Source: a virus
IMG/VR virus record: IMGVR_UViG_3300046167_000147
Coordinates: 1 to 29,060 of that record
Strand: one strand, 5' to 3'
DNA: 29,060 bases
The translations under genes were made by a program, and so were the position numbers. The notes below the pieces were generated by a model. That model was not told where the DNA came from. It ran no database searches and saw only the letters and a list, made by a program, of their open reading frames with translations. Shown piece after piece: positions 3,808-28,938 of the stretch. Positions within the stretch are counted from its first letter, which is position 1, and every line of letters starts with the position of its first letter.

Positions 3808-4184
3808 TTGATAAATTAATAGGTCCAGTAAGCGACATAGTTAATAAGTTAATACCTGACAAGGATTTACAAGCCAAGCTAAACCATGAACTTAAAACTG
3901 AATTACATAAAGCGAATATGGCTCAAGTTGAAATTAATAAAATTGAAGCTGGTCATAAGTCTTTATTCGTGGCTGGATGGCGGCCATTTGTCGGCTGGAC
4001 TTGTGGTATTGCTCTTATGTACCATTTTCTATTACAGCCTATTATTATCTTTGGACTCTCAGCAGCTGGAATCACTTTTATACTACCATCCTTTGACATG
4101 GGATCGTTGATGACTGTATTGATGGGTATGTTAGGACTTGGCGGATTAAGAACTTTTGAAAAAACTAAAGGAGTTGCAAAATGA
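3804..4184 (+). CDS. Holin, 3TM family (GTA_holin_3TM type)
   Basis: The protein is 126 residues. An amphipathic N-terminal half (DIVNKLIPDKDLQAKLNHEL...EINKIEAGHKSLF) leads to the conserved segment AGWRPFVGWTCGIALMYHF. Three hydrophobic helices follow at about residues 62-80, 80-95 and 96-116. The conserved RPFVGW motif and the 3TM layout fit the holin family first described in gene-transfer-agent and alphaproteobacterial phage clusters. Holins open the inner membrane so the endolysin can reach the cell wall. The next gene is that endolysin, overlapping by ATGA, which supports a lysis cassette. A holin function is inferred from family and context. Confidence 0.85.
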   Translation: MIDKLIGPVSDIVNKLIPDKDLQAKLNHELKTELHKANMAQVEINKIEAGHKSLFVAGWRPFVGWTCGIALMYHFLLQPIIIFGLSAAGITFILPSFDMGSLMTVLMGMLGLGGLRTFEKTKGVAK

Positions 4185-10442: not shown

Positions 10443-13070
10443 ATGGCAGATACATTTACAACCAATCTTAACTTAACTAAACCAGAAGTAGGAGCATCTA
10501 CAGATACTTGGGGAACAAAGCTAAACGCTGACCTCGATACTGTTGACGGATTATTTAGCTCTACTGGAACTTCAGTAGCTATGAACCTAGACGGAGCAGT
10601 TATAGACAGCTCTGTTATTGGTGGCACTACAGCAGCCGCAGGATCTTTCACAACTCTATCAGCAAGTACATCTATAACAGGTACATTAACAGGTAATGTA
10701 ACTGGTAATTTAACAGGTAATGTAACAGGTAATGTAACAGGAGATGTTACAGGTGACTTAACAGGAACAGTTTTAACAGCAGCTCAACCTAATATTACAA
10801 GTGTTGGTACGCTTACAGGTTTAACCGTAAATGGTAATGTTTCAGTAGACGGTGGAACAATTAAACTTGATGGTAATTATCCAACTGGTACAGCCAACGT
10901 AGCTTTAGGTGATACAGCTTTATCAAGTGGTTCTTTATCAGGTCAAGAAAATACAGCAATAGGTGCAAGAGCCTTAGAAGCAAATACAACTGCAAATGAA
11001 AATACTGGAATAGGTATGAAGGCATTATTAAGTAATACTACTGGTAGTGCTAATACTTCTGTTGGTCAGGGTTCTTTAGCTTCTAACACTACTGCTTCAA
11101 ACAATACCGCAGTTGGTAAATCTGCTTTAGGTGCAAATGCCACAGGTACTCAAAATACCGCAGTTGGTTCAAAAGCTTTAGATGCTAATACCACGGCTTC
11201 TAATAACACTGCTTTCGGTTACGCAGGTTTAGGAGCAAATACAACTGGTGCTGCAAATACAGCAGTAGGAGGAGGTGCTTTATCTAGTAATACAACGGCG
11301 AGTAATAATACTGCTGTAGGAGAAAGTGCTTTACTAGCAAACACTACAGGTCATCAATCTGTAGCAATAGGTTCAGGTGCTTTATCATCTAATACCACAG
11401 CTCATAGTAATACAGCAGTTGGATATCATACTTTAAATGATAATACTACAGGAACATTAAATACAGCAGTTGGTACTTTTACATTAGATGTCAACACCAC
11501 AGGAGATAGCAATACTGGTTTAGGATATGGTGCTTTAAGCGAAAACACTACAGCTTCTAATAACACTGCTGTTGGTCATCTTGCTTTACTATCAAACACT
11601 ACAGGTAATAGTAATGTAGCAGTAGGTGCTTATTCACTAGATGCCAATACAGTTGGAGATAGAAACACAGCAGTTGGATATCAATCTTTATCTGCAATGA
11701 ATCCTAGTAGCAATGCAGATATGTACAATAGTGCATTTGGTTTTCAAGCAGGTTTAACATTAACAACAGGTGTGCAAAATACACTTATAGGTTCACTGGC
11801 AGGATATAACATTACCAATCAATCAAATATTACAGCAGTTGGTAATCAGGCTTTAACAGCAAATACGTCAGGTCAAAGAGGTACTGCTGTAGGTGCTGCA
11901 GCTTTAGCATCAAATACTACTGGTAATTATAATACAGCAGTTGGTTTTACAGCTTTAACATCAAACACTACAGGTTACAACAATGCTGCATTTGGAAATC
12001 AGTCTATGGTGGGAAATACTACAGGCGTTAATAATAATGCATTTGGTGGAAGCACACTACAAAGTAATACAACAGGTTCTTCAAACGTAGCAATGGGACA
12101 TGGTGCTTTAAACTTAAACACCACAGCATCTAACAACACAGCAGTAGGTTATTTTGCTTTATTAGCAAACACTACAGGTTCTGAAAGTGTAGCAGTTGGT
12201 TCAAATGCTTTAGAAAACAATACAACTGGTCAAAATACAGCAGTAGGTTTTTATGCTGGTCGTTTAAATACAACAGGTTCAGATAATACAGCTCTTGGTC
12301 GTTACGCTTTAGCTAGTAACACAACAGGTTCAGCCAATGTCGCTGTCGGTGTATTAGCTTTACAAACTCCAACTACGTCAAACTGCATTGCTATTGGTTA
12401 TCAATCTCAAAGATATGCTGGTGGTACTTCTAATGTTTCAGTGGGTTATTATGCTTTACGAGTGGCTACAGGTGCTGGTAATGTAGCAGTAGGTTCTAAT
12501 GCTGGAGACAGTGTTACCACAGGTACAGGAAATACAATAATAGGAAATTTAGCTGATGCAAGTGCAGTTGGTGGCGTTAATCAAATAGTCATAGGCAATC
12601 AGGGAACTGGTAATGGAAACAATACAGCCACTTTAGCAGCAGGTTCTACTGAAAGTTATATTACATTAGGTGCTACATCTTGGAGTGGAAGTTCTGATGA
12701 AAGATTAAAAGAAAACATAACAAGCTCTACAGCAGGATTAAGTTTTGTAAATGATTTAAGACCTGTTACTTTTAACTGGAAAAAAAGAAAAGATATACCT
12801 AGTGAATTAAGTGGTTATGAAGAAGGTTCAGAAGAAAGATATAATTTAACAGACACAACTAAACATGGTTTTATAGCACAAGAAGTTAAAACAGTTTTAG
12901 ATAATCATTCTGAAGTCAAAGATGGTCAAGAATTTTGGACTACAAAACCTGATGGAACACAGTCTTTAGCAGTAGGTGCTTTAATGCCTATGGCTATAAA
13001 AGCAATTCAAGAACTGTCTACGCAAGTAGACGAATTAAAAGCCGAAATAATAACTTTAAAAGGAGAATAA
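10443..13070 (+). CDS. Tail fibre with NTAVG repeats and S74 self-cleaving chaperone
   Basis: The protein is 875 residues. The N-terminus ([20 protein letters not shown]) is the common start of marine podovirus fibres and likely attaches to the tail. A collagen-like run follows at about residues 80-107 ([19 protein letters not shown]). Residues about 165-720 hold at least 25 repeats of about 22 residues of the form NTAVGxxAL-x-x-NTTG, similar to the head repeats of trimeric adhesins. The last 125 residues, from S751 (SDERLKENI), are a Peptidase_S74 intramolecular chaperone with [10 protein letters not shown]. It trimerises the fibre and is cut off before the Ser-Asp pair. The role is receptor binding. 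RBS AAAGGA precedes ATG. Confidence 0.93.
10940..12600 (+). repeat. Long array of about 66-bp coding repeats in the tail fibre gene
   Basis: At least 25 units encode NTAVG-type repeats with period near 22 codons. Frequent shared words include AATACAGCAGTTGG, AATACTACAGG and GCTTTA. Copies differ mainly at the two or three variable residues after NTAVG and at synonymous sites. Unit gain or loss by recombination is likely over time (inference). Confidence 0.88.
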
Positions 13071-19527: not shown

Positions 19528-19941
19528 ATGCCACGCCAATCTGAAAGAGTTGGCCGATCTGGAGAATACTTAGTAGCCTCGTTGCTTTCTTTATACGCTG
19601 ATACTGTAATGATAGTTCCACACAGCGCGGAGGCAGACATCATCTTTGACGTTGACCATACGCTATACAAGTGCCAGGTTAAAACACAATCTAAAATACA
19701 AACACATAGAGTGTCATGGCAGTTTGATTTTAGGCGTGGTGCATTTACCAAAGACAGATACTACGAGGACGAAGCATTAGATGTTTATGCTTTGGTTGCT
19801 TTAAATCCGCAGAAGGTTTTGTTTACTTTTCCAAACGGCAAGAAGCAGATGACTATTACAGACGAAAAGTTACAGGCGATGGACTCGCTGAAAAATACCG
19901 AAGATCTATTTAAAGAGCTTCGATGTCGACAGACACCTTAG
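19528..19941 (+). CDS. PD-(D/E)XK-like nuclease (group I intron endonuclease-like)
   Basis: The 137-residue protein contains VGRSGEYLVASLLSLYADTV with a conserved Glu, then SAEADIIFDVDHTLYKCQVK followed by TQSK. The order Glu, Asp (AD-I-I), then Q-V-K matches the PDDEXK_5-type core, where Gln can replace the acidic residue before the catalytic Lys. A C-terminal region with KDRYYEDEALDVYALVALN fits the same fold. It may resolve DNA junctions or act as a homing-type nuclease; it may also aid packaging. Its last 32 bases overlap the opposing gene. The family call is by motif only. Confidence 0.75.
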   Translation: MPRQSERVGRSGEYLVASLLSLYADTVMIVPHSAEADIIFDVDHTLYKCQVKTQSKIQTHRVSWQFDFRRGAFTKDRYYEDEALDVYALVALNPQKVLFTFPNGKKQMTITDEKLQAMDSLKNTEDLFKELRCRQTP

Positions 19942-20125
19942 GATTATCGTAATGTTTCACAGAGTTCATACCTAAAGATATTAGATACTCAACCACTTTA
20001 GCTGGTTCTTTCTGTTCACTTTTACAAAAGTCCTTAAACTTTTTAGCAAGATGCTTGTTTATATATACAGGTTTCCTACCATTTCTTTCTTTTAAGATAC
20101 GATCATCAAACTCATATAGATTCAT
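19910..20125 (-). CDS. Small RHH-like DNA-binding candidate
   Basis: The 71-residue protein starts MNLYEFDDRILKERNGRKPV. A short strand (KPVYIN) is followed by two helices (KHLAKKFKDFCKSE and KEPAKVVEYLISLGM), the order of a ribbon-helix-helix fold. A good GAGG site sits before ATG. It is the second gene of a two-gene minus-strand unit after DUF3310, and its end overlaps the nuclease gene on the other strand. It may be a repressor. The fold call is moderate and the target is unknown. Confidence 0.7.
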   Translation of the reverse strand: MNLYEFDDRILKERNGRKPVYINKHLAKKFKDFCKSEQKEPAKVVEYLISLGMNSVKHYDNPKVSVDIEAL

Positions 20126-20132
20126 AGTTACC

Positions 20133-20468
20133 TCATTTATCTAGCGAGAACTCTACAGAATATCTACCAATGTCAACACCTTTGGCATCAACGCCATGTA
20201 CCATCTGCAACTCTAAATCTATAAAGTGTTTCGCTTTTAACAAGTCGGTTACTCTATCAGACTTCTCGCCTTTGCTTCTGGTTATATACTTTAAACAACT
20301 ACCTAGATTATAAGATAGTTTGTTTGCATATATATAGTCTATAGGTTGTATCTTGGATTGCTTGTAATGCGTTCCAGCTACTTGGTTGTTGGTAGCAAGC
20401 TTGTCTATAGCCTGATCCCATTCCTCTTCTGTTCCCATATTCGTATGTGCATATATTGTTTTATTCAT
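20133..20468 (-). CDS. DUF3310 protein
   Basis: The 111-residue protein carries the hallmark segment GTHYKQSKIQPIDYIYANKL followed by NLGSCLKYITRSKGEK and DLLKAKHFIDLEL, which is the DUF3310 family. Family members are small phage proteins, some labelled nucleotide kinase-like, with no settled function. The start at 20468 has a GGAGAA site six bases upstream. The gene faces away from the replication operon, with which it shares the intergenic region 20469-20573. Confidence 0.88.
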   Translation of the reverse strand: MNKTIYAHTNMGTEEEWDQAIDKLATNNQVAGTHYKQSKIQPIDYIYANKLSYNLGSCLKYITRSKGEKSDRVTDLLKAKHFIDLELQMVHGVDAKGVDIGRYSVEFSLDK

Positions 20469-20573: not shown

Positions 20574-20789
20574 ATGGATATATTAGATAAGAATTTTGAC
20601 ATACTAAATACTATAGAAGTTGAAGAATTAGCAAAGCGCTGGGGTGTTAGCAAAAAAACAATTGACAATAGAAGGTATAGGAATCAAGGACCAAATTATT
20701 TCAAGATTGGTGGCAAGATTTTATACGATTTAGAAGATGTGCAAAGAATGGAAAACGATTCTTATATATCTGTACATGGCCCACGCTAA
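20574..20789 (+). CDS. Excisionase-like HTH protein (HTH_17 type)
   Basis: The 71-residue protein has an HTH near residues 15-45: IEVEELAKRWGVSKKTIDNR followed by RYRNQGPNYFKIGGKILY. The motif plus the short beta wing and DLEDVQRM end match the MerR-like HTH_17 family used by excisionases and small phage regulators. It is the first gene of the replication operon, right after the promoter candidate, so it is more likely a regulator than an excisionase. No integrase is seen. Its end overlaps the next gene by 14 bases. Confidence 0.8.
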   Translation: MDILDKNFDILNTIEVEELAKRWGVSKKTIDNRRYRNQGPNYFKIGGKILYDLEDVQRMENDSYISVHGPR

Positions 20790-25302: not shown

Positions 25303-26704
25303 ATGAACGTATTAAGTTTATTTGACGGAATGAGTTGTGGCAGGATTGCTTTAGAGCGTCTTGGCATACCAGTAGATAATTATTATGCAAGTGAGATAGA
25401 TAAATATGCTATCCAAGTAAGCCAAGCTAATTACCCAGACATTATACAAGTTGGTGATGTAACCGAATTAGATACATCAACACTACCAAAGATTGATTTG
25501 ATTATGGGTGGTAGTCCGTGTCAAGGATTTAGTTTTGCTGGTAAACAATTAGCGTTTGATGACCCAAGATCTGCATTGTTCTTTGAGTTTGTTAGATGTG
25601 TAAAGGAGTCTAAAACCGAAATATTTTTTATTAGAAAACGTAAGAATGAAGAAAGAATATTTAGATGTTATATCTGAATATATGGGTGTTGAGCCAATAA
25701 TGATTAATTCAGCGTTAGTATCAGCACAGAATAGAGTTAGATATTATTGGACTAACATACCTGGAATAAAGCAGCCTGAACAAAGAGGTATAGTTTTAAG
25801 GGATATATTGGAAACTAATGCTTCTAATGAATACCTTGCTGGAGAAAACTTACAAAAGAATTATAAAGGCGGCAATCAATTGAATCCAAACTATAAAAGC
25901 CAAGCTAATACCATACATGATACAGAGGGTAAGTCTGGAACAATTTGTGCTGGTACTCATGGTTATGCAAATGGTTATGTTGCTGATGTTGATCCTAAAT
26001 ATTATTTATCAGAAAAAGCTATTAAATACATGAAAAAAAGTCATGTAAATGAGTGGACAAAAGGTAAAACAAGAGAGGAGATTTATATAAAAAATGAATC
26101 ACAAAAATCAAACACTTTAACAGCAAATATGCATAAAGGTGTTCCTTATAATGTAATTGAAGTTGATAAACCAAAAGTAGTTGCTGGTGCATGGCGTGGT
26201 AGGTATTACAAAGACGGAGTAAGACAAGATCAGTTCGGCTCGGTTGCTGGTAAAACCAAACAGATGCTAGAACTAAGAAAAGATGAAAAGACTAATACAG
26301 TTACTACAGTTCAAAAAGATAATGTAGTTGTAGAAACTATAACTGTAGATAAAGAAAAGAAACAATTAACCATAAAAGAAGCAACGAAAAAAGGTTATAC
26401 CACTATTGAAGACGGAGATTGTTTTGATATGACTTTTCCTAATTCTAAAACCAGGAGAGGGAGAAACATGAAAGATAAGAGTAATTGTCTTACAGCTGCA
26501 AACTATGACTATATGCGATACGAACATTCAGACGAAGATAAAGAAGTTTACTGGCGCAAACTAACTCCTGTTGAGTGTGAACGATTACAAACAGTACCAG
26601 ATAATTATACGAATCATGTAAGCAATACCCAACGATATAAGATGCTTGGGAACGGCTGGACAATTGAAGTTATTGCTCACATTTTAAAGAATATGGAACT
26701 ATGA
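25303..26704 (+). CDS. C5 cytosine DNA methyltransferase, interrupted by a +1 shift
   Basis: A strong AAGGAG site precedes ATG 25303. Motif I is LFDGMSCGRIAL. The catalytic site is GGSPCQGFS with C73. The frame then breaks after VKESK at the AAAA run 25612-25615. Dropping one A gives KPKYFLLENVRMKKEYLDVI, which restores the ENV motif (E111-N112-V113). The rest has SAQNRVRYYW (motif VIII), a long variable target region, and LTPVECERLQTVPDNYT plus KMLGNGWTIEVIAHIL (motifs IX-X). The repaired length is about 466 residues. As written the product is truncated. Such enzymes modify phage DNA against restriction. The target site cannot be read from the sequence. Confidence 0.93.
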
Positions 26705-26871
26705 GCGTTGGGAACTTTAGGGACATACTAGGGAAGCTAAGGGACATACTATACACTCAGATGCCCAACGGACGAGTAAAAGGTTCCCATATATCCATGT
26801 ATATACATATACATAGTAGAGCAATCCCCTTTAGGGGGATTGACTCTACCGAAAAAGAGAGAGAGTTATGA
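26701..26871 (+). CDS. 56-aa coupled ORF
   Basis: ATG 26701 overlaps the methyltransferase stop (ATGA), and the TGA at 26869-26871 overlaps the next ATG (26868). The peptide starts MSVGNFRDILGKLRDILYTQ and continues MPNGRVKGSHISMYIHIHSR. The two FRDIL/LRDIL pieces come from a 21-base direct repeat. A 171-base frame that begins and ends exactly in coupling overlaps is strong evidence for translation. No family was recognised. It also contains a strong hairpin, so it may work partly as a regulatory leader for the HTH gene. Confidence 0.65.
   Translation: MSVGNFRDILGKLRDILYTQMPNGRVKGSHISMYIHIHSRAIPFRGIDSTEKEREL
26719..26751 (+). repeat. Direct repeat AGGGACATACTA, copies 21 bases apart
   Basis: The 12-base word occurs at 26719-26730 and at 26740-26751. 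The offset of 21 bases is seven codons and also two DNA helical turns. It encodes RDIL twice in the 56-aa ORF. It may be a protein repeat, a DNA-binding site, or both. Confidence 0.7.
26816..26849 (+). other. Strong stem-loop before the HTH gene
   Basis: GTAGAGCAATCCCC (26816-26829) pairs with GGGGATTG (26835-26842) plus CTCTAC (26844-26849), giving 14 pairs with one bulged A and a 5-base loop. No T run follows, so it is not a normal terminator. It ends just before the GAGAGAG ribosome site of the gene at 26868 and could modulate coupled translation. Confidence 0.65.
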
Positions 26872-27311
26872 GAAGATTCGGACAAATAGATAAATCCTAT
26901 TGGTGGATTACTGCTCACAGCGAAAGCGAGCGTGGGGAGAAAACAGCATTGATACCCATAGCGCTTGCTAGAAAGGAATCAGACTTCTCGCGCGTGCGCC
27001 AGATCGTTTGGCATTGGTATCGCTCGGAGGTTGCAGGCAATGAGGAGTTATCCATGACAGCTAGATTCGTTGGTTGGGCATTGTGCGAGCGCTGGAGGTA
27101 TGAAACCTGGAGTTCGCATGATGCTATTAGTTATTATGCAAAGATGACAGCAGTAAATCGTAAAAGCGTTGGGAGAGCGCTAGCGGAGTTGAGCGAGCAA
27201 GGATTAATATGGATAGTTTTGGAGGGCGAGCCAAAGCGCTTGCGGAAGTCCCAGAGCGGAGGGAAGAAGCATTTTTTGTTGGTTGGTTTAGCTGAGTTGG
27301 TTCGTGAGTAG
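26868..27311 (+). CDS. HTH DNA-binding protein with unusual GC-rich composition
   Basis: The 147-residue protein begins MRRFGQIDKSYWWITAHSES. A central region, MTARFVGWALCERWRYETWS followed by YYAKMTAVNRKSVGRALAEL and SEQGLIWIV, fits a winged HTH of the HTH_36 kind, with the recognition helix near NRKSVGRAL. The end is basic (RLRKSQSGGKKHF). GAGAGAG precedes ATG. It closes the replication operon, so it may start replication or regulate the opposing small-gene unit. The DNA is rich in GCGAG and AGCGC words, unlike nearby genes, which may indicate recent transfer. Confidence 0.75.
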   Translation: MRRFGQIDKSYWWITAHSESERGEKTALIPIALARKESDFSRVRQIVWHWYRSEVAGNEELSMTARFVGWALCERWRYETWSSHDAISYYAKMTAVNRKSVGRALAELSEQGLIWIVLEGEPKRLRKSQSGGKKHFLLVGLAELVRE

Positions 27312-27338
27312 CGCGAGGAGGTGCGAGGGCGGTGCGAG

Positions 27339-27399
27339 GAATGGGCGCTAGCGTTTCAGGGGGGTTAACTTTGGAGAGTTAAGATACTAACGCCCATTC
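27339..27399. other. Nested inverted repeats between converging units
   Basis: GAATGGGCG (27339-27347) is the exact reverse complement of CGCCCATTC (27391-27399). Inside it, TTAACT (27365-27370) pairs with AGTTAA (27377-27382). The 103-base gap 27312-27414 holds no convincing gene. The structure lies between two converging transcription units and could halt or protect both RNAs, but the T run of a standard terminator is missing. Confidence 0.55.
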
Positions 27400-27414
27400 A
27401 AAAAGGTTATTGTA

Positions 27415-27534
27415 TCATTTCTTTTTTTCTTTGGTTTCTTTTTTCTTTTCGCGCTTGCCGAATATCTTATCCCAATTTTCCGCGAATGTTTTCTTATCTG
27501 GTATTGGTCTTGGTCTGCTTCCTTTTCCTGTCAT
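27415..27534 (-). CDS. 39-aa peptide, MTGKGSRPRPIP type
   Basis: The ORF reads MTGKGSRPRPIPDKKTFAEN, then WDKIFGKREK and a Lys/Glu-rich end. It is coupled by ATGA to the gene before it. Small proteins starting M-(T/S)-G-K-G-S-x-P-R-P and ending W-D-x-I-F-G-K are widespread in phages by my recollection. The function is not known. It is the last gene of the minus-strand small-gene unit. Confidence 0.78.
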   Translation of the reverse strand: MTGKGSRPRPIPDKKTFAENWDKIFGKREKKKETKEKKK

Positions 27535-27731
27535 GATAGTATTAGCTCCTCTTTGTTATAAAATACATTCTCTGCTATGTGTTGCAGTATTTCGTCTCTG
27601 TCATCATCTTGATGCAATCCATAGCAATTAGCTATTGCATTAACCTCTGTATCTAATAGGCCTTTTCTGTCCCATTCAACAACCTGGTAATGTATATTTT
27701 CTAAATGTTCCTCATTGTGTAAGTTGCTCAT
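27531..27731 (-). CDS. 66-aa acidic small protein
   Basis: The protein starts MSNLHNEEHLENIHYQVVEW and has DRKGLLDTEVNAIANCYGLH followed by an acidic helix (DDDRDEILQHIAENVFYNKEE). An AGGGGG site precedes ATG. It overlaps the 29-aa gene before it and the 39-aa gene after it. No family was recognised. Small acidic proteins in phage early clusters sometimes mimic DNA or block host enzymes; this is only a possibility here. Confidence 0.7.
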   Translation of the reverse strand: MSNLHNEEHLENIHYQVVEWDRKGLLDTEVNAIANCYGLHQDDDRDEILQHIAENVFYNKEELILS

Positions 27732-27817
27732 ATTTTCCCCCTAAATAAATAGAATAATGCTTTTAGCTTTTCATCTGTTAAATGTCTTAAATGTTTTGGT
27801 ATGTCCTCTCGCTTCAT
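27728..27817 (-). CDS. 29-aa coupled peptide
   Basis: The ORF encodes MKREDIPKHLRHLTDEKLKA followed by LFYLFRGKI. Both ends are four-base ATGA overlaps with neighbouring genes. One amphipathic helix is expected. The coupling at both ends is the main evidence. The function is unknown. Confidence 0.6.
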   Translation of the reverse strand: MKREDIPKHLRHLTDEKLKALFYLFRGKI

Positions 27818-28020
27818 GTCGTCCTCACTGTGCCATTGGGAGAAACTGTGCCTAGCCTTTCCCCTGTTATTGTTAATAAAAGCCATGTGCCGTCTCTGTC
27901 TTGCTTAGACGCGTCTTTATTTGGGTATATGATCTCGCCAGTGTGTCCTAGTTGATCTCTTAGGTGTCTAGCGTATGCAAATTCTGCCATTGAAAAGCTT
28001 ATTGTCTTATATGGTTTCAT
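27814..28020 (-). CDS. 68-aa small protein
   Basis: The protein starts MKPYKTISFSMAEFAYARHL and has RDQLGHTGEIIYPNKDASKQ, then a strand-turn-strand end (GTWLLLTITGERLGTVSPNG). A GAGGGATAA sequence acts as ribosome site and stop of the gene before it (TAATG). No family was recognised. A small alpha-beta fold is likely. Confidence 0.7.
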   Translation of the reverse strand: MKPYKTISFSMAEFAYARHLRDQLGHTGEIIYPNKDASKQDRDGTWLLLTITGERLGTVSPNGTVRTT

Positions 28021-28193
28021 TATTTATCCCTCGTTGGTTTACCATTAGGAAAGGTAAGTGCTTCGCTAAAGTCTTTCCAATCTTTTGGAGACATTGCTAT
28101 CTCTACCTTATGTATTGGCGTGTTATCTTTTAATCCATACTTCTTTCGTAGCTGACCTATCACGCTTTTATGCGTTCTTGTTTTAATAGTCAT
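28020..28193 (-). CDS. 57-aa basic small protein
   Basis: The protein starts MTIKTRTHKSVIGQLRKKYG and continues LKDNTPIHKVEIAMSPKDWK. A basic helix is followed by a strand and a helix. TAATG overlaps join it to the genes on both sides. The function is unknown. Confidence 0.68.
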   Translation of the reverse strand: MTIKTRTHKSVIGQLRKKYGLKDNTPIHKVEIAMSPKDWKDFSEALTFPNGKPTRDK

Positions 28194-28351
28194 TATGATG
28201 CCTCTACAGTTTTTTTAGCACCCTTGTCATTAGAAGTCATATAATCTTCTCCAAATGCAAAGTTCATAACTTGTGCTTTTTCTTCCTTGGTGCAATTAGA
28301 AATTCTTTTTTCTTGTATAATTGCAATCATTTGTTTTTCAGTTAATGTCAT
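28193..28351 (-). CDS. 52-aa protein, first gene of the minus-strand small-gene unit
   Basis: The protein starts MTLTEKQMIAIIQEKRISNC and has TKEEKAQVMNFAFGEDYMTS. A GGAGAAG site lies six bases before ATG, the best ribosome site of the unit. It is the promoter-proximal gene. It ends in a TAATG overlap with the next. No family was recognised. Confidence 0.68.
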   Translation of the reverse strand: MTLTEKQMIAIIQEKRISNCTKEEKAQVMNFAFGEDYMTSNDKGAKKTVEAS

Positions 28352-28369
28352 GTTTACTTCTCCAAAGTA

Positions 28370-28391
28370 TGTAAGATTTAATTACCTTACA
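28370..28391. promoter_or_regulatory. Inverted repeat TGTAAG/CTTACA at the minus-strand promoter start
   Basis: TGTAAG (28370-28375) and CTTACA (28386-28391) flank ten A/T-rich bases. The dyad covers the predicted RNA start of the small-gene unit and its first 20 bases. It could be a repressor operator or a small leader hairpin. The word TTAATTACCT inside it (28378-28387) recurs at 28450-28459. Confidence 0.5.
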
Positions 28392-28397
28392 ATACTC

Positions 28398-28425
28398 ATT
28401 ATACATATATATACCCAATATACAA
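28398..28425 (-). promoter_or_regulatory. Promoter of the small-gene unit
   Basis: On the minus strand TTGTAT (28425-28420) and a perfect TATAAT (28403-28398) are 16 bases apart. RNA would begin near 28391, with GGAGAAG and ATG 28351 following. The perfect -10 box and the lack of another promoter for six chained genes support it. Confidence 0.6.
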
Positions 28426-28488: not shown

Positions 28489-28938
28489 ATGGAAAAGGGA
28501 AAACCAGGTAGAAAAAGAAAGCTATCTAATCTAAGTGAAGAAGAATACAAACAGATCAGTCTATGGTCTGGAGATGGCTTAAATGAAAGCCAAATCGCTA
28601 CATTGCTTAATGTAAACATCTCAACAATAACTAGAGAAAAGAAACGTAACGAGCAATTTGCACACGCTATAAAAAAGGGAAAGTACAAAGCAGTGCAACT
28701 CGTGGCAAACAAAGTATTTCAAAACGCAATGGATGGTAAAGAAACAAGCGCGATATTTTTCCTAAAGAATCGCGACCCAGACAACTGGGCGGATCGCCAG
28801 GAAGTTAATTACAACCTAGATCTTAAGAATGTTCTCACAGACGCACGCGCTAGGATAATAGACCACGCTCCGTCTGGCGCTCTCCCAAAGCGCACGCACA
28901 CGCCGAGAGCAAGCGAGAGCGAGGGCGCGGATGAATAA
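28489..28938 (+). CDS. Terminase small-subunit-like protein
   Basis: The 149-residue protein begins MEKGKPGRKRKLSNLSEEEY. A helix-turn-helix at about residues 31-58 (LNESQIATLLNVNISTITRE) is followed by KKGKYKAVQLVANKVFQNAM, then SAIFFLKNRDPDNWADRQEV and LDLKNVLTDARARI. The order HTH, then helical region with A-x-F-F-L-K-N-R, then W-x-D-R-Q-E-V matches small terminase subunits of many podoviruses. These bind pac or cos DNA and recruit the large subunit. The gene lies at the right end, and the large subunit is not in the window. The last 25 codons become GC-rich and disordered. Confidence 0.82.
   Translation: MEKGKPGRKRKLSNLSEEEYKQISLWSGDGLNESQIATLLNVNISTITREKKRNEQFAHAIKKGKYKAVQLVANKVFQNAMDGKETSAIFFLKNRDPDNWADRQEVNYNLDLKNVLTDARARIIDHAPSGALPKRTHTPRASESEGADE

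Follow-up and report, generated by a model that had tools for sequence, protein, structure and literature searches.

The sequence analyzed, referred to here as the window, is 29,060 bases long and comprises the whole of an IMG/VR record. It is part of a tailed-phage genome, and genes for a major head protein, an exonuclease, a Sak4-like annealing protein and a small terminase are found elsewhere in it. A block of six small open reading frames (termed o1 to o6) is situated on the minus strand, opposite to nearly all other genes of the window. On one side it is flanked by the divergent gene for the terminase small subunit (positions 28489–28938, plus strand; phrog_309, E-value = 7.5e-24). On the other side is a convergent gene for a helix-turn-helix (HTH) protein (positions 26868–27311, plus strand), which is weakly replication-initiator-like (phrog_270, E-value = 0.0028) and whose match to HTH_36 (E-value = 2.5e-5) is slightly under the Pfam cut-off. 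Relatives were collected from viral_contigs by scans with o3, o5 and the terminase and by subsequent scans with the HTH gene. The first comparison set consists of 110 non-redundant loci, and the gene counts given below include the window's own stretch (L001). A search for the host, with a single genome per species for 84,980 species of bacteria and archaea, showed no relative of the primase-like protein.

The open reading frames, all on the minus strand, are o1 (52 aa, positions 28351–28193), o2 (57 aa, 28193–28020), o3 (68 aa, 28020–27814), o4 (29 aa, 27817–27728, with the pattern IPKHLRHL..LFxLFR), o5 (66 aa, 27731–27531) and o6 (39 aa, 27534–27415, of the MTGKGSRPRP type). The junctions o1/o2 and o2/o3 have the form TAATG, and o3/o4, o4/o5 and o5/o6 have the form ATGA. 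The site, the lengths and these overlaps are as given in the first-pass annotation. The chain was compared with 400 dinucleotide-preserving shuffles of the sequence, counting ATG open reading frames that have at least 25 aa and overlap their neighbors by 1 or 4 bases. The longest chain in the window has six members and the longest in any shuffle has three; thus the six-member chain is beyond chance.

Open reading frames o2 to o6 recur in relatives, and the gene order is mostly unchanged. By tblastn, o2 is present in 58 of the 110 loci, the core genes o3 and o4 in 85 and 77, o5 in 51 and o6 in 75. Median dN/dS values range from 0.17 to 0.40 (o2, 0.165; o3, 0.40; o4, 0.25; o5, 0.29; o6, 0.37). 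Stop codons in these frames in close relatives had been named as one observation that would speak against the genes; no truncated copy is present among the full open reading frames recovered (58 of o2, 82 of o3, 76 of o4, 47 of o5 and 68 of o6). The overlaps are conserved as well. An exact 4-base overlap is found at o3/o4 in 53 of 60 loci and at o4/o5 in 44 of 47, and in a more distant subgroup, where o4 precedes o3, a 4-base overlap is still present. By these substitution patterns, o2 to o6 are genuine coding genes under purifying selection; that is, five of six open reading frames below the usual size for gene calling are real. The first open reading frame is an orphan in a variable slot. 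No relative of o1 was detected in the 110 loci or in viral_contigs, and its coding status is therefore assigned by position alone.

The predicted proteins differ in charge: o5 is acidic (net charge −11), o6 is basic (+9) and o1 is neutral (0). Searches of o1 to o6 against PHROGs and Pfam gave chance-level matches only and no notable family, and o1, o2, o3, o5 and o6 gave no match in PADLOC. Against solved structures, profile searches for o2, o3 and o5 gave only chance-level matches or matches to designed proteins. Among isolate phages, no record encoding o2, o3 or o5 was found, and o6 and o1 gave weak matches only. Structure prediction had been proposed as a check, and AlphaFold2 models were made for o3 and o5. 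Both are fair (pLDDT 83 in each case), with a helix and a small sheet predicted for o3 and three helices for o5, but neither has a significant fold match; the best viral match for o3 is an unnamed one with an E-value of 7.7e-3.

A promoter precedes o1. It has a −35 sequence TTGTAT (positions 28425–28420), a 16-base spacer and a −10 sequence TATAAT (28403–28398), the last being the perfect hexamer pointed out in the first-pass annotation. It looks sigma70-like with a weak −35 (3 of 6 positions), and for this reason it does not appear in a consensus scan. The promoter region is conserved in relatives. Directly behind it is a short stem-loop in the 5′ leader (positions 28391–28370), identified by folding and covariation: in an alignment of 43 sequences, 4 of the 6 consensus pairs display changes on both sides. 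The stem-loop is followed by a Shine-Dalgarno (SD) site, ACTTTGGAGA (positions 28368–28359, with GGAG at 28363–28360), in the context ACUUUGGAGAAG. A covariance model of the leader (R2) matches the window at 28356–28412, is matched in 77 of 100 sources and is matched in 24 of 60 further sources, which are partly repeated contigs. Promoter, stem-loop and SD context are kept across relatives although the first gene varies.

A second structured element is found at the other end of the block, behind o6 and on the same strand (positions 27402–27336). It consists of a 14-bp outer stem, an inner hairpin with an exposed CUCC loop, and a C-rich bulge, and in the window it has a predicted energy of −24.5 kcal/mol and a fold z of −7.35. 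In most relatives of the block an element of 60–70 bases is situated behind the last gene, always on the block strand, and it stays there despite genes inserted before it or toward the HTH gene. In 38 aligned sequences, 8 of 12 pairs of the outer stem have changed on both sides and 99.8% of the cells are paired. The outer stem cells include 42 G-U and no A-C combinations when read on the block strand. This identifies the element as a functional RNA of the block strand, with the reservation that the structure finder behind the strand test permitted G-U and not A-C pairs, a possible bias. A structure on the plus strand at this site was rejected (z −1.0 versus −4.4, in addition to the G-U asymmetry). 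The first-pass annotation had seen the promoter but had missed the RNA elements at both ends of the block.

A covariance model of the 3′ element (R1) scores 78.4 bits in the window. It is matched in 58 of 100 sources, the window included, once in each and always on the block strand (E-value < 1e-4). The model revealed no intact element missed by the structure finder in the 100 sources, only two clipped by contig ends. It is also matched in 27 of 60 further sources, about ten of which are contigs already counted. A scan of the collection with a 15-base leader core gave many chance matches among the matches listed. The matches listed from two pattern scans come from 69 sources, at least 8 of them with a leader recognized by the model and at least 4 with a 3′ element. 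Rfam showed no match above the curated threshold in the window or in eight loci; the sole sub-threshold match is unrelated, on the opposite strand and across o4/o5. No tRNA was found.

Together, the overlaps, the kept gene order, one conserved promoter and leader, and one conserved 3′ structure support the view that o1 to o6 form a single operon. Leader and 3′ element are on the same strand, with a gene chain without a gap between them, and both ends would lie on one transcript. A promoter of its own for the 3′ RNA is not favored: a TACAAT sequence is present ahead of the element in the window and, by eye, is absent in relatives that have a 34-residue peptide gene at this place. The peptide is a single-span membrane-like sequence encoded after o6 (e.g. 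L062, positions 3993–4094, minus strand; cluster c5, 32 members), and it is absent from the window.

The element closes the block and is situated between two genes that converge. This position, together with its strong outer stem and the C-rich, G-poor sequence downstream, would suit a mere 3′ stabilizer or a transcription stop, e.g. a Rho-assisted one, in which CUCC resembles an anti-SD sequence by chance or binds a protein. An intrinsic terminator at 27336–27402 was rejected, as the stem is not followed by a U-run and no minus-strand site appears in the terminator scan; both observations weigh against a stop in general as well. The loop is dispensable for a terminator, yet it is among the most conserved columns of the element. 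CUCC is unpaired in all 48 unique 3′ elements, with a mean probability of 0.998. A stabilizer or stop alone is an unlikely explanation, also in the light of the relationship between loop and leader described next.

The loop of the 3′ element includes the stretch TCTCCAAAGT (positions 27377–27368), a 10-base complement of the leader SD site at 28368–28359. Exact copies of ACTTTGGAGA occur only twice in the window, in the leader and, in antisense orientation, in the 3′ loop. GGAG is common to strong SD sequences. CUCC alone would thus pair with many SD sites, and any specificity comes from the flanks only. The triplets 5′ of GGAG and 3′ of CUCC were compared with each other in 67 loci: 59 are Watson-Crick matches, 2 are G-U matches and 6 do not match. 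The main combinations are TTTGGAG with CUCCAAA and TACGGAG with CUCCGUA, and in L043 TATGGAG occurs with CUCCAUA. A change in the SD flank is thus mostly accompanied by a change in the loop. In 4 of the 6 unmatched loci (L074, L066, L081, L084) a second leader SD fits the loop where the first fails. The counterexamples to the rule are L038 (TAC versus AAA), L180, and L045/L051.

Among 27 unique combinations of leader and loop (the table excludes L017, L087 and L055, which have a hairpin of another kind), the mean complementary run is 10.0, as compared to 7.6 in permuted pairs. The covariation score is 0.37 in the right register and 0.15 or less in shifted registers, and none of 5000 shuffles gave a score as high; this test still counted five loci with a wrong "first leader" due to contig ends or lookup (L050, L008, L015, L168, L042). 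In 16 of the 27 combinations, no site within the locus scores better for the loop than the leader. In the other 11 another site of the locus outscores it, in some cases a second leader. In the window, an unrelated stretch around position 2862 (minus strand) scores slightly above the leader.

The match might be a chance product of shared ancestry alone. When co-changes of leader and loop are placed on trees of the flanking genes, 2–3 independent concordant and no discordant changes are found, which is not significant in itself; relatedness makes the sequences non-independent, and 2–3 pairs cannot reach significance, as a sign test takes 6 such changes. This leaves room for ancestry as an explanation. 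It is weakened by one type of distant relative, represented by L127 and L111. Seven distant relatives negative for R1 were examined. L127 and L111 carry a different hairpin that matches their own leader SD, itself different, perfectly over 10 bases; 9 of 5000 loop shuffles reach this match. L125 and L118, likewise of a single type, show a perfect 10-base match to a further SD inside the block. No strong match of a hairpin with an SD was found in L116, L087 and L017. The matching hairpins of distant relatives, and the co-variation of the loop flanks with the SD flanks, also speak against a mere stabilizer or stop.

The identical 10 bases at both ends of the block, exact nowhere else in the window, could also be inverted copies of one DNA- or RNA-binding site of a phage regulator, perhaps encoded in the block. 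The TTT-type leader SD (positions 28368–28359, minus strand) in fact lies as a loop between the arms of a small inverted repeat (UACUU-UGGAG-AAGUA), which such a regulator might recognize; the repeat is absent in the TAC type. However, the orientation of the two sites is always antisense, the 3′ copy lies within a hairpin that has G-U pairs on the block strand only, G-U compatible partners (TAT with GTA) fit RNA-RNA pairing, and the block has no known regulator. A regulator site is thus quite improbable. With RNA-RNA pairing, the placement of the TTT-type SD in the loop of an inverted repeat makes a loop-loop kiss with the 3′ loop possible, and the contact could take this form.

The leader and the 3′ hairpin suggest a feedback loop. 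Transcription from the one promoter would give an mRNA that starts with the short 5′ hairpin and the SD in its ACUUUGGAGAAG context, and translation of the block genes would be coupled by the overlapping starts and stops. At its other end the mRNA would have a structured 3′ UTR, with CUCC and flanks complementary to the leader SD exposed in the loop. After transcription of the full operon, the 3′ RNA, acting in cis or released as a small RNA, could pair with the leader SD and block ribosome binding, so that expression of the first gene would be reduced and that of the others would follow by coupling. On the evidence of complementarity and covariation, this leftward operon of small genes is probably limited by its own 3′ RNA.

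A comparable arrangement is described for the icaR mRNA of Staphylococcus aureus, in which the 3′ UTR contains a UCCCCUG motif that base-pairs with the mRNA's own SD, prevents initiation and gives an RNase III substrate (PMC3868564). Both have a 3′-UTR motif, C-rich and of the anti-SD kind, that complements the mRNA's own SD, here over 10 bases. The icaR mRNA is bacterial and its motif has 7 bases, whereas the present system is a phage operon with a hairpin loop in a covarying structure, known from its sequence. OppZ and CarZ of Vibrio cholerae are cut from the ends of operons and repress the same operons (PMC7398697; PMC9438474). They are described as small RNAs of bacterial metabolic operons processed by RNase E, and OppZ needs Hfq (PMC9438474). 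The likeness, as far as these accounts go, is that a polycistronic operon has its own repressor RNA at the 3′ end, with feedback that needs full transcription; in the block, too, the RNA is at the 3′ end of its presumed target operon, with which it would share a transcript. A small RNA of the OppZ/CarZ type would be expected to end in an intrinsic terminator with a U-run, the Hfq-type 3′ end. In contrast, no U-run follows the stem of the phage element and no minus-strand terminator is listed; for this reason a stable small RNA with a normal intrinsic-terminator end is not evident, and membership of the OppZ kind is not claimed. By analogy, the block would work like icaR and OppZ/CarZ.

Non-coding RNAs derived from UTRs were found in phage PhiKZ by Grad-seq and Northern blot (PMC8545117). 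Phage transcripts can thus give structured UTR RNAs, and pairing with the SD of the RNA's own operon is not among the properties described in that account (PMC8545117). In the literature compared, feedback between 5′ and 3′ UTRs has so far come from single bacterial mRNAs. No phage case was recognized in the open-licence literature, which is weak evidence of novelty. There is perhaps an even chance that the element represents a new phage RNA family, in which a 3′ UTR hairpin carries a co-evolving antisense to the SD of an interchangeable first slot and, as an integral part of the operon, slows translation of an exchangeable island of small genes that act on the host. If so, this would be a phage example of 5′–3′ UTR feedback, with natural matched and mismatched pairs.

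The block varies in gene content. In the 62 loci that hold both flanking genes, the block open reading frames form 159 clusters, a figure that rests on mechanical calls, some surely false. The common core consists of o3, o4, o6, o2, o5 and the 34-residue membrane-like peptide, and the remainder is variable. The first slot behind the leader is occupied by 28 different families across the 62 loci. By this content the block is a mosaic island of accessory genes, carried by a group of uncultivated tailed phages. One family of the first slot, present in 8 of the 62 loci, has a match to PHROG 2568 ("ocr-like anti-restriction") in each of the five members tested (E-value = 4e-8 to 1.3e-5), with net charges of −15 to −19. 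T7 Ocr and this PHROG are the nearest known counterpart here, as acidic proteins of the PHROG fill the first slot in relatives, but o1 of the window differs, being neutral and having no PHROG 2568 match (0 families). Further cargo in relatives includes an MT-A70 methyltransferase, a deoxyribonucleotidase and HNH-like zinc-finger proteins.

The block had been proposed in the first-pass annotation to be an early host-takeover unit, with inhibitors of host enzymes or defences. The sigma70-like promoter and a strand opposite to most genes fit early expression. Small genes in mosaic combination, some of them of a known anti-host kind, are indeed found, in relatives rather than among the window's own genes. 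The Ocr-like gene in the first slot, the MT-A70 methyltransferase and the deoxyribonucleotidase, the 159 clusters and the acidic o5 all favor such a unit. However, o1 to o6 match no known family, and the window proteins have no informative sequence or fold match, so that support for this reading comes from the cargo of relatives; moreover, the conserved core o3-o4-o6 is more housekeeping-like than arms-race-like. That each small protein inhibits a host enzyme, in an early takeover or anti-defence unit, is a possibility at slightly under even chances. If the feedback operates as proposed, any gene entering behind the leader would fall under the shared control, and the dosage of newly acquired island genes would be controlled immediately. 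A variable gene island would then be governed by a leader that is portable and a 3′ hairpin that matches it, not by a protein repressor, in some relatives with two leaders and one loop, and the two covariance models would give a search handle for anti-host islands in uncultivated phages.

Several relatives show a second hairpin and a like SD context ahead of a downstream gene, after an intrinsic terminator. In L074 (positions 2380–2500), L075 (5540–5660) and L014 (4660–4770), a terminator (AAGCCCGC..GTGGGCTTTTT) is present between the first and the second gene of the block, and the leader hairpin with its SD is repeated immediately downstream of it. The first gene looks as if it belonged to a separately tuned short transcript. 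In L218 the sequence of the second hairpin is wholly different, and the SD context TACTTTGGAGAAGTA is retained.

Three other features of the window were noted. The only other clear minus-strand genes are at positions 19910–20468 and encode a 71-aa protein with no PHROG match and a 111-aa protein that matches phage "nucleotide kinase" families (phrog_236); this pair is divergent from an excisionase/MerR-like regulator at position 20574 on the plus strand. A large plus-strand open reading frame at 10443–13070, adjoining the tail region, encodes an 875-aa adhesin-like protein with NTAVGxxAL..NTTG-type repeats. A cytosine-5 DNA methyltransferase is encoded at 25303–26704 on the plus strand in two overlapping open reading frames of different frames (25303–25677 and 25646–26704). 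Matches to this enzyme cover both parts, and the arrangement may represent a natural split, a frameshift or a sequencing error.
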